From Cardiobacteriaceae bacterium (GTDB lineage: Bacteria; Pseudomonadota; Gammaproteobacteria; Cardiobacteriales; Cardiobacteriaceae): a DNA stretch of 36,497 bases. The stretch spans positions 1 to 36,497 of the forward strand of contig JAFUTP010000070.1 in NCBI GenBank assembly GCA_017484165.1, written 5' to 3'. The notes below the pieces were generated by a model. It ran no database searches. It had not been told where the DNA came from and saw only the letters and a list, made by a program, of their open reading frames with translations. Position 1 is the stretch's first letter. Every line of letters starts with the position of its first letter. Position numbers and translations under genes: made by a program. Below, piece by piece: positions 13,231-27,072 of this stretch.

Positions 13231-13346
13231 AAAAAAAAAGGGCTCGCACCAGCAATCCTCACACCCACATCACTACTACCGTTGCTTCATTCCTGACCTG
13301 GCGGGGTTTGCAGCTTATTGTTGCGAGACGCCAATGCGAACCACGG
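13231..13346 (-). ncRNA. ffs: Signal recognition particle RNA (4.5S) with terminator
   Basis: On the minus strand the conserved apical domain reads GCCAGGTCAGGAATGAAGCA, the SRP Alu-less core with the GGTCAGG and GAAGCA internal-loop strands. The 5' and 3' arms pair (GGTTCGCATT with GGTGCGAGCC, G-U allowed). The RNA ends at GAGCCC followed by nine T residues (13231-13239). The length of about 105 nt is normal for gammaproteobacteria. It lies upstream of dnaX on the same strand. The 5' end is estimated from the promoter. Confidence 0.93.
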
Positions 13347-21022: not shown

Positions 21023-21144
21023 GAGCGCATCTAACATCTATGGTTAGTTCTATTTTTTACCATCGTCATCCTGAACGCAGTGAAGGATCTGTCGATAGAG
21101 ATTTTTCGCCTACGGCTCAAAATGACGAATTTTTTAGATATGCC
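21023..21144 (+). repeat. MITE family A, copy 7
   Basis: The core is complete (CGTCATCCTGAACGCAGTGA to GGCTCAAAATGACGA), with ends AGCGCATCTAA and TTTAGATATGCCT. No clear direct repeats flank it. It is about 70 bases from copy 6, in the same orientation. Confidence 0.82.
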
Positions 21145-23495: not shown

Positions 23496-23619
23496 GTGCG
23501 TATTTAAATTTAGAGTAGTTCTATTTTTTTGACCGTCGTCATCCTGCACGCAGCGAAAAAACTTCCCCGATAGAGATTTTTCGCCTACGGCTCAAAATGA
23601 CGAATTTTTAGACACAGCA
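23496..23619 (+). mobile_element. MITE family A, copy 8, between purB and rnpB
   Basis: The ends are GTGCGTATTTAAA and TTTAGACACAGCA, and TATC occurs directly outside both (23492-23495 and 23620-23623). The core has drifted (CCTGCACGCAGCGAAAAAAC). It lies immediately after the purB terminator and about 50 bases before the rnpB -10 box. Confidence 0.85.
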
Positions 23620-23668: not shown

Positions 23669-23681
23669 TAAAATGCCGCGC
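23669..23681 (+). promoter_or_regulatory. -10 box and GC-rich discriminator of rnpB
   Basis: TAAAAT (23669-23674) is followed by GCCGCGC directly before the RNA start. The same TA-rich box plus GCCGCGC occurs at the SRP RNA promoter. No good -35 box is visible. Confidence 0.5.
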
Positions 23682-24010
23682 GAGTTTGCTGGGCAATCGC
23701 GCCATTGGCGAGGAAAGTCCGGGCTTCATAGGGTAAAAGGCTGGGTAACGCCCAGGCGGCGCGAGCCGACGGAAAGTGCCACAGAAAATATACCGCCGTC
23801 TATACGGTAAGGGTGAAATGGTGCGGTAAGAGCGCACCGCGTTTTTGGCGACAAAAACGGCAGGGAAAACCCCCTTCGAAGCAAGTTCAAATAGGAAATC
23901 AATGCGGCGACCCGTCGCGATTTCGGGTAGAACGCTAGAAATTAGCAGCAATGCTAATTCCAGATGAATGATTGCCCTCGACAGAACCCGGCTTATAGGC
24001 AAACTCATCT
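23682..24010 (+). ncRNA. rnpB: RNase P RNA (A-type)
   Basis: This is the catalytic RNA of RNase P, which matures tRNA 5' ends. Conserved blocks are clear: GAGGAAAGTCCGGGC, CATAGGGT, GGTAACGCC, GGTAAGGGTGAAA, GTGCGGTAAGAGCGCACCGC, CAAATAGG, GATGAATGATTG, and CGACAGAACCCGGCTTAT. P1 pairs GAGTTTGC with GCAAACTC and P2 pairs GGGCAATC with GATTGCCC. Two features differ from E. coli and Pseudomonas RNAs. P3 is only CGCC-ATT-GGCG, and L15 reads AGGGAAAAC where AGGTAAAC is expected. There is no terminator between P1 and the tRNA gene, so the 3' end may be made by RNase P cleaving the tRNA. About 329 nt. Confidence 0.96.
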
Positions 24011-24012
24011 GC

Positions 24013-24089
24013 GCCCTTGTAGCTCAATTGGATAGAGCAGTCCCCTCCTAAGGGAAAGGTTATCGGTTCAATTCCGGTCTCGGGCGCCA
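24013..24089 (+). tRNA. tRNA-Arg (anticodon CCU), CCA encoded
   Basis: The cloverleaf begins GCCCTTG-TA-GCTC. The anticodon loop is CTCCTAA (anticodon CCT, reading AGG), the T loop is TTCAATT, and the end is G-CCA. D stem GCTC/GAGC and T stem are sound. The acceptor stem GCCCTTG/CTCGGGC has adjacent U-C and U-U mismatches at pairs 5-68 and 6-67, and the anticodon stem has G27-A43. It starts six bases after the P1 helix of rnpB. A run of six T residues follows the CCA and may end the transcript. Confidence 0.85.
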
Positions 24090-24150
24090 TTTTTTATCCG
24101 CTCTCCATCTCACAAAAAAATCAATCAAATTCACTTCGAAGAGGCAAACT

Positions 24151-25026
24151 ATGAACAAACTCACAATTGCAATCATAACTTCCGCTTTATTGTTAAGTGC
24201 TTGTGGCGGCAATCAACAAATAAATTTCGGCTCGGACGGTGTCAGCGGATACATCTGCGATAGTAACGGAATAGCTTGCGTGAGCGGAAATAGCCATAAT
24301 TCCAATAATTCGAATAATTCAAATCAGCAAAAAAATCAGGCTAACAGTGCAAAAAATTATGTAGAAGAGATAAGCGGACAGGTAATTATCGAAACTGGAA
24401 CAGTAGCAAAAAGAAATACACAGGCAATAAAAACTATAAGTAATCAATTAAATACCGTAATTTTTAACCATAACAGTGCAACTTATACAATTACAAAACC
24501 TGCAAAAGAGGATGAAAATTTTGCTACAACAGATATGTTTTTGTCTAGTCCGTTGGATGATGATGCAAGCTTATTCGGTAAAAATTTAAGTTATTCCAGA
24601 TACGGCATAGCTCAACTAACTCATCAAGATGATTTTAATCAGAAAGTAGTATTCAGCCAAGGTTATTTAACAAGCGTCGAAAATATGCCAACTAGCGGAA
24701 TAATTAACTATAAAGGTGCAGCCGCAATGTGGAAATATAACCAAGATGCGTATTTACCATTTATCGGAAAAGCAGAATTGACGGCTGATTTTGATGCAAA
24801 AAAAGTACGAGGCAATATCTCTAATCTAACTTCTGAATTTCAGAATAAAACAGCCGATGATATAAAACTCGAAGGTAATATTTCAGCTAATAAAGTTGCA
24901 GGTTCTAGCACAGAGGGAACTCGTCTCGATGCCGCATTTTATGGACCAAACGCCGCAGAATTGTCGGGCTCATTTGTAAATGATGGAGAAGATTTCAAAG
25001 GCTCTTTCGGGGCGAAAAAACAATAA
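24151..25026 (+). CDS. Surface lipoprotein with TbpB-like barrel, likely Slam substrate
   Basis: The 291-residue precursor has a lipoprotein signal peptide with lipobox LSAC, Cys at about residue 17. A polar linker rich in Ser/Asn (SHNSNNSNNSN) follows. The C-terminal half resembles the small beta-barrel domain of TbpB, NHBA and related lipoproteins: AELTADFDAKKVRGNISNL, RLDAAFYGPNAAELSGSFVNDGEDFKGSFGAKKQ. The FYGPNAAELSGSF segment is the family hallmark. Such proteins are moved to the cell surface by Slam, and a slam gene lies 615 bp downstream. The ligand (iron carrier, haemoglobin, complement factor or other) cannot be told from sequence. It is short compared with TbpB, and has one barrel only. 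Confidence 0.86.
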   Translation: MNKLTIAIITSALLLSACGGNQQINFGSDGVSGYICDSNGIACVSGNSHNSNNSNNSNQQKNQANSAKNYVEEISGQVIIETGTVAKRNTQAIKTISNQLNTVIFNHNSATYTITKPAKEDENFATTDMFLSSPLDDDASLFGKNLSYSRYGIAQLTHQDDFNQKVVFSQGYLTSVENMPTSGIINYKGAAAMWKYNQDAYLPFIGKAELTADFDAKKVRGNISNLTSEFQNKTADDIKLEGNISANKVAGSSTEGTRLDAAFYGPNAAELSGSFVNDGEDFKGSFGAKKQ

Positions 25027-25641: not shown

Positions 25642-27072
25642 ATGAATAAAAAAATCACTCTCGCACTAGCTTGTTTTATTACCAGCAATTTATACGCAGA
25701 AAACCGTGCTGAACTTCTCCCCGAACCGCAACATAAAGATTTTACTAACAATCTAGTCGGTGAAAATATCCGCAAGAGTGCAAAAACGGAAAACAAAACA
25801 GTTACCGAAGTTTCATTAGAAGACTTAAAAAATAATCCACAATTATTAGAAAGAGTGTTGGATAAAGCCATTGAAACCAATCAAATTAAACTAGTAGAAT
25901 TATTGCTACCGTTTTATATTGAAAACCCTAATCACGATAAAACATTAGTAACTTATGCAAAAGCAAAAATAGCTATAAATCAAGGTGATACAAAAAAAGC
26001 AATTGAACTTTATCAAGAGATAATCAATAAAAATCCTGATTTAACTCCCACTCGCTTTTATCTTGCACAAGCTTTGCTGCTAGACGGTAATTTAATTAGC
26101 GCAAGAGAGGAATTTAATAAAGTCAAGGCTGATAAAAATTTACCGAAAGAGGTAGAAGTTGTAGTCGATAAATATTTAGAACAAATCGCCAAGCAAAATA
26201 AATGGAAATTTGATGTTAATGCCTATTACATCGACGATAAAAATGTCAATAATTCAGCCAATTTACCGCCTGAAACCGCCGAAAATTGCGGTTTTTTACA
26301 AGATTGCACCATCACTTATCCGCAAGGCGAAAGAGCACATGGTTTCGGCTTCGGCTTAAATGCTAGAAAAGATTTCGCCATTGCCGATAAAAATTATTGG
26401 CGGATTGCAAGCAATAATTACGGCAAATATTATTGGGATAAACATAACTACACGGATATAACAACAAGCATTTCGACAGGTCTGGTGCATCGTTCAGCCA
26501 AACAAGAAACTTCCGTAATGCCCTATGTCGGTCGCAGAATGTATGGCGACAGCACTTATAGCAAAAATGTCGGTATTAACTTTAATAATGCCAGAGTTAT
26601 AAATAATAACTTTACTTTATTCTCCGCGGTTGATATTGGTCGTCAATCTCATCCCGATAGAAAATATTTGGACGGCGTTGATACCTCAATCTCTAACACT
26701 CTTCTATACCGCTCTTCCCCAAAACAATATTTCACTTTCGGACTTGATTTCGGACAAAGCACGGCTCGCGATAAAAGTGAAGAATATAAATATGGCGGAA
26801 TAAGAACAGGTTGGGGAAGAAACTGGCAGCGGGAAATTACTACTAACCTATCTGGAGGAATATTAAAACGCTACTATCAAGCTGAAAATTTCTTCGGAAC
26901 AAAACGCCAAGATGATGTTTATTACGGCAAATTCAGCATCCATAAAAATAACTGGCAAGTTTTCGGAATTACTCCACAATTAGTCGCAAGATATCAAAAA
27001 AATGATAGTAATCAAAAGTTCTATACCTATGATAAAAGCCAAGTTTATTTCGATTTCTTAAAAAATTTCTGA
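25642..27072 (+). CDS. slam: Slam (surface lipoprotein assembly modifier), DUF560 family
   Basis: Slam proteins are outer-membrane proteins that deliver lipoproteins to the cell surface. The 476-residue product has a signal peptide (cleavage after LYA near residue 19). A periplasmic TPR region occupies about 70-195 (KAKIAINQGDTKKAIELYQEIINKNPDLTPTRFYLAQALLLDGNLISAREEF). A C-terminal beta-barrel of about 270 residues follows and ends in FDFLKNF, as outer-membrane barrels do. The barrel segments (WRIASNNYGKYYWDKHNY, FSAVDIGRQSHPDRKYLDGVD, YGGIRTGWGRNWQREI) are of the DUF560 type. The adjacent lipoprotein is the likely client. Domain order and length are those of known Slams. Confidence 0.9.
   Translation: MNKKITLALACFITSNLYAENRAELLPEPQHKDFTNNLVGENIRKSAKTENKTVTEVSLEDLKNNPQLLERVLDKAIETNQIKLVELLLPFYIENPNHDKTLVTYAKAKIAINQGDTKKAIELYQEIINKNPDLTPTRFYLAQALLLDGNLISAREEFNKVKADKNLPKEVEVVVDKYLEQIAKQNKWKFDVNAYYIDDKNVNNSANLPPETAENCGFLQDCTITYPQGERAHGFGFGLNARKDFAIADKNYWRIASNNYGKYYWDKHNYTDITTSISTGLVHRSAKQETSVMPYVGRRMYGDSTYSKNVGINFNNARVINNNFTLFSAVDIGRQSHPDRKYLDGVDTSISNTLLYRSSPKQYFTFGLDFGQSTARDKSEEYKYGGIRTGWGRNWQREITTNLSGGILKRYYQAENFFGTKRQDDVYYGKFSIHKNNWQVFGITPQLVARYQKNDSNQKFYTYDKSQVYFDFLKNF

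Follow-up and report, generated by a model that had tools for sequence, protein, structure and literature searches.

The 5′ ends of tRNAs are made by RNase P. In E. coli, RNase E and exonucleases take part in making the 3′ end of the enzyme's RNA (M1 RNA), and rnpB, which encodes it, is a single gene, closely followed by an intrinsic terminator of its own and not by a tRNA. That the RNA of RNase P can share a transcript with tRNAs is known from yeast mitochondria, where fMet-RPM1-Pro is transcribed as one unit (PMC3797045). In that unit RNase P helps to process the transcript of its own RNA, tRNAs lie on both sides, and RPM1 is further cut into fragments. Two other systems are also close. Polycistronic tRNA operons of E. 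coli are cut by RNase P (Mohanty and Kushner 2007, cited in PMC11143913), which parts upstream RNA from the tRNA, and engineered self-cleaving conjugates hold ribozyme and pre-tRNA in one molecule, the tRNA being tethered artificially near the substrate-binding region (Frank, Harris and Pace 1994, cited in PMC11143913).

Here, we have analysed a stretch of 36,497 nucleotides (hereafter the window) from a Cardiobacteriaceae metagenome-assembled genome (MAG) of 1.8 Mb, in which tRNA-Arg(CCU) stands directly 3′ of rnpB. The initial annotation of this DNA mentioned reports of RNase P RNAs linked to tRNAs, and the yeast mitochondrial unit is such a precedent. As in yeast, RNase P RNA and tRNA stand together, on the same strand and adjacent, in an order conserved in 11 of 12 Cardiobacteriaceae genomes. 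What is new relative to the yeast precedent is that the unit is bacterial, with a full-length class A RNA, that the tRNA is found on the 3′ side only, and that it abuts the expected mature end. Unlike in the E. coli tRNA operons, the upstream RNA is RNase P's own catalytic RNA, and unlike in the engineered conjugates described in that source, the linker is natural and extends only a few nucleotides beyond P1. Our search of the open-access literature, outside which most subscription papers lie, found no report of a bacterial rnpB-tRNA unit.

Results

An Rfam search of the window gave a full-length match to RF00010 at 23681-24011 of the plus strand (329 bits, E 2.9e-107, against a cut-off, the gathering score, of 100 bits), and the presence of P1, P4 and the conserved core places the RNA in class A, as in E. 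coli. The features of the locus, together with other features of the window mentioned below, are collected in Table 1.

Table 1. Positions of rnpB, the linked tRNA and other features in the window
Feature	Position	Strand	Basis
rnpB, class A RNase P RNA, P1 to P1	23682..24006	+	RF00010, model 1-367
P1 5′ strand GAGTTTGC	23682..23689	+	Rfam alignment
P1 3′ strand GCAAACTC	23999..24006	+	Rfam alignment; pairs with GAGTTTGC
Candidate -10 box TAAAAT, putative rnpB promoter	23669..23674	+	read from sequence
Spacer ATCTGC, 6 nt; predicted mature 3′ tail of RNase P RNA	24007..24012	+	sequence reading
tRNA-Arg(CCU), encoded CCA	24013..24089	+	ARAGORN; Rfam tRNA 54.3 bits
CCA of tRNA-Arg(CCU)	24087..24089	+	
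T6 run immediately 3′ of the encoded CCA	24090..24095	+	sequence reading
Terminator-like match within rnpB	23819..23839	+	terminator scan
REP-like repeat, two copies	21055..21131; 23528..23606		
TbpB/factor-H-binding (fHbp)-like lipoprotein	24151..25026		
SlipAM (Slam) surface lipoprotein assembly protein	25642..27072		
4.5S signal recognition particle RNA gene	13243..13337	-	

The candidate -10 box of rnpB is followed by a GC-rich GCCGCG. No clear -35 was found before TAAAAT, and a consensus promoter scan made no call there. A candidate -10 region stands at identical spacing (TAAAATGCCGCG) in a water deer reticulum Cardiobacteriaceae MAG of the window's genus (G001), and other Cardiobacteriaceae carry TTGCAA/TTGTCT...TACAAT at the promoter position. 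Just upstream of rnpB lies one of the window's two copies of a REP-like repeat of 77-79 bp, which is dispersed in at least 41 copies in the genome, the others being 84-92% identical to this copy. Another RNA gene of the window, for the 4.5S signal recognition particle RNA, shares its strand with dnaX and lies immediately before it, and the start of the listed 684-aa dnaX ORF overlaps the RNA gene.

The gap of six bases between P1 and the tRNA that the initial annotation had described is right in both coordinates and bases. A terminator scan found no terminator-like hairpin in this spacer; its sole plus-strand match is one of the ribozyme's own hairpins. No sigma-70-like site was found between the two genes by a consensus promoter scan, which poor-consensus promoters escape. 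The terminator scan also found no hairpin after the tRNA. In the minimum-free-energy structure of the precursor computed with RNAfold, P1 and the cloverleaf are kept side by side.

ARAGORN and Rfam agree on a cloverleaf with a CCU anticodon and a CCA end, so the gene belongs to tRNA-Arg(CCU). The window tRNA has three stem mismatches, U5.C68 and U6.U67 in the acceptor stem (from acceptor-arm analysis) and G27.A43 in the anticodon stem (read from the sequence), which are common to the window genome (G000), G001 and G005 and absent from other genera of the family. The acceptor mismatches look like tRNA decay or a tolerated internal loop in this lineage. In the fold of the window precursor, leader bases C-1 and G-2 are able to pair with G73 and C74; in the window's genus, such pairing could displace RNase P cleavage or make it weaker. 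Since AGG is rare in the window genes (17 of 9012 codons) and tRNA-Arg(UCU) is also present in the genome, the decoding role of tRNA-Arg(CCU) may be under relaxed selection in the window lineage. Downstream, 61 nt past the tRNA, starts a gene for a TbpB/fHbp-like lipoprotein, which with the Slam gene further on is a likely pair of surface lipoprotein and exporter.

A scan of related genomes, as had been proposed, showed that rnpB is single in all 12 family genomes and is followed directly by tRNA-Arg(CCU) on the same strand in 11 of them. The linked genomes span six genera and include the cultured Cardiobacterium valvarum (G008) and Rappaport israeli (G006). The chance that a same-strand tRNA starts within 16 nt downstream of rnpB is roughly 2e-4, assuming about 45 tRNA genes, 1.8 Mb and two strands. 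Since the junction recurs in all but one of the 12 family genomes, chance or an assembly artefact is excluded. BLAST and anticodon-arm patterns found no second tRNA-Arg(CCU) in any linked genome, and the next best match, where there is any, is tRNA-Arg(UCU) in a Pro-Arg-His cluster.

The spacers from P1 to the first base of the tRNA measure 4-16 nt over the 11 linked genomes (genus g1, 6 and 6; g5, 8; g4, 5 and 4; g6, 5; g7, 4 and 13; g3, 14, 15 and 16). They are 4-6 nt long in six genomes (both of g1, both of g4, g6 and G007) and 8-16 nt in the other five; that of G009 is AACCC, 5 nt. None of the 11 gaps contains a terminator, and a strong one directly follows the tRNA in G003. In G007, ...CCGGCTC-ACCT is followed by GACCCCG, the tRNA start. 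The annotated end of E. coli rnpB is P1 plus 4 nt (...CAGTTTC-ACCT, then GATTT), so the E. coli tail ACCT (ACCU in the RNA) is exactly the G007 spacer. In six of the 11 linked genomes, the tRNA begins about where a canonical RNase P RNA stops in its mature form.

Only G002 departs from this order. A coding sequence lies close behind rnpB there, and BLAST and anticodon-arm patterns found no tRNA-Arg(CCU). In the rest of the order, this tRNA was found only in genus g12, apart from rnpB. A UvrD tree puts G002 on a long branch and does not resolve its position. A PurB tree groups it with Cardiobacterium (100/98), which weakly points to loss of the junction in G002; the inference is weak because family PurB is itself split in the tree. 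The PurB sequences of G002 and Cardiobacterium (L294, L292, L293) stand apart from those of the other family members, a hint of gene replacement.

For the search outside the family we used a junction pattern of ACAGAAYYCGGCTTA plus a GGTTCRA T-loop; of 30 rnpB loci sampled, 29 contain ACAGAAYYCGGCTTA. In an even draw of 369 Gammaproteobacteria and one of 398 Pseudomonadota, only Cardiobacteriaceae matched. G005 is linked yet was missed by the pattern, so counts obtained with it are lower bounds. In a global scan of a genome collection some 85,000 strong, a real tRNA directly follows rnpB in 38 of the 118 matches listed; five of these are in Cardiobacteriaceae and 33 elsewhere. The other matches among the 118 listed were chance T-loop matches with no real tRNA and were discarded.

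Thermomicrobia-type Chloroflexota have tRNA-Leu(CAG), rnpB and tRNA-His(GTG) in this order in at least 12 loci, several with tRNA-Thr(CGT) further upstream, and Gemmatimonadota/Longimicrobiales have rnpB followed by tRNA-Arg(CCG) in at least 12 loci. At one of the latter (L085), four further tRNAs lie just upstream of rnpB. In the Clostridia among the matches listed, the tRNA is Leu(GAG) in three cases and Leu(TAG), Ser(GCT) or Ala(GGC) in a single case each. The remaining matches listed have Lys(CTT) in WOR-3, Ile(TAT) in a Nealsonbacteria MAG and Ser(GGA) in Blattabacterium. RF00010 scored above its cut-off in 25 of 32 scanned non-family loci; in seven Chloroflexota loci, which fell below it, the rnpB call is based on conserved motifs and shared gene order. 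That different tRNAs stand at the 3′ end of rnpB implies several independent origins of the layout.

Discussion

The arrangement of rnpB and tRNA is real, conserved and recurrent, and the mechanism behind it is probably ordinary cleavage in trans. We argue that rnpB and tRNA-Arg(CCU) would be transcribed as one precursor of about 410 nt driven by the rnpB promoter, and that pre-existing cellular RNase P would cleave it in trans at the 5′ end of the tRNA; in the window, this cut is expected after 24012. One cut would then free both RNAs: the tRNA would gain its mature 5′ end by it, and the RNase P RNA its 3′ end. Judged from gene order, conservation and the single copy of the tRNA gene, we consider this reading likely. 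The initial annotation proposed a single transcription unit with no room for a terminator or promoter, and the spacer is indeed too short in all 11 linked genomes. Its proposal that the tRNA 5′ cut sets the rnpB 3′ end also gains in strength: since no other tRNA-Arg(CCU) was found in these genomes, the tRNA, if needed, must leave this transcript via an RNase P cut, barring an unseen promoter inside rnpB. The tail after the cut would be 4-6 nt beyond P1, near the E. coli length, in six of the 11 linked genomes. Some findings count against our reading. The E. coli tail length is unmatched in five genomes, whose spacers are 8-16 nt long and where exonucleases may trim further; the window tRNA is imperfect; and its leader bases can pair with G73 and C74.

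The missing terminator by itself says little. The initial annotation stated that rnpB usually has a terminator of its own. This holds for E. coli, but a simple scan of 19 unlinked Gammaproteobacterial rnpB loci recognised a terminator in only four. As 15 of the 19 have none visible, its absence alone is weak evidence for a common transcript, and it would also suit two independent genes. In that case the tRNA would be transcribed from a promoter within rnpB, and other nucleases, such as RNase E in E. coli, would make the 3′ end of the ribozyme. A promoter of poor consensus could have escaped our scan. However, no promoter-like site was seen upstream of the tRNA, its -35 and -10 elements would have to sit in conserved ribozyme sequence, and the spacer is too small to hold them in all 11 linked genomes; we regard two separate genes as quite unlikely. 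Another account is that an integrating element parked the tRNA beside rnpB, so that closeness has no role in processing. About 174 nt past the linked tRNA of G004 there starts a gene for a tyrosine integrase (Arm-DNA-bind_3, Phage_int_M, Phage_integrase), so this tRNA appears to serve as an attachment site. Yet ordinary genes occupy that place in the other family genomes opened (G006, G008 and G009), the closeness is kept over six genera, and even a parked tRNA would leave the cut to define the rnpB 3′ end; we regard this account as highly improbable. At this locus of G004 (L274, G004:C1:220600-226600), the integrase ORF stands at 351-1553 and is followed by a DUF927 protein.

A further alternative is cleavage in cis. 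The precursor ribozyme might cut the tRNA on its own 3′ end and so couple maturation to activity homeostatically. Substrate and ribozyme are covalently joined in the predicted precursor, and self-cleavage is known from engineered conjugates of pre-tRNA and RNase P RNA (PMC11143913, citing Frank, Harris and Pace 1994). However, the conjugates as described there tether the tRNA near the substrate-binding region and not a few nucleotides past P1, the 4-16 nt range of the spacers offers no fixed geometry, and trans cleavage requires no special feature. We hold cleavage in cis to be very unlikely. Nor did we see any sign that the uncut precursor is inactive, as the coupling of enzyme level to enzyme activity suggested in the initial annotation would have it; cis cleavage and feedback on the enzyme level are both unsupported.

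If cleavage in trans of a common precursor is true, RNase P in natural bacteria generates the 3′ terminus of its own RNA by the ordinary cut of the ribozyme, in a layout that has arisen several times with different tRNAs, and the 3′ ends of RNase P RNAs would be predictable from genome annotation in these groups. The junction would also be a natural system in which to study the activity of a tRNA-tailed RNase P RNA, its cleavage in cis or in trans, and a possible effect of this on the enzyme level. A bolder view is that the tRNA was recruited in several lineages as the ribozyme's 3′ processing signal, so that RNase P would be needed to finish its own RNA, possibly in cis, and that the window tRNA, with its three mismatches and a largely redundant role at AGG, is kept mainly for that purpose. 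We think this unlikely.

Among the layouts outside the family, that of the Thermomicrobia-type Chloroflexota, Leu-rnpB-His, appears nearer to the yeast mitochondrial one. In all 12 Thermomicrobia-type loci listed (L033, L039, L050, L051, L055, L058, L089, L095, L104, L108, L131 and L148), rnpB lies within a tRNA cluster.
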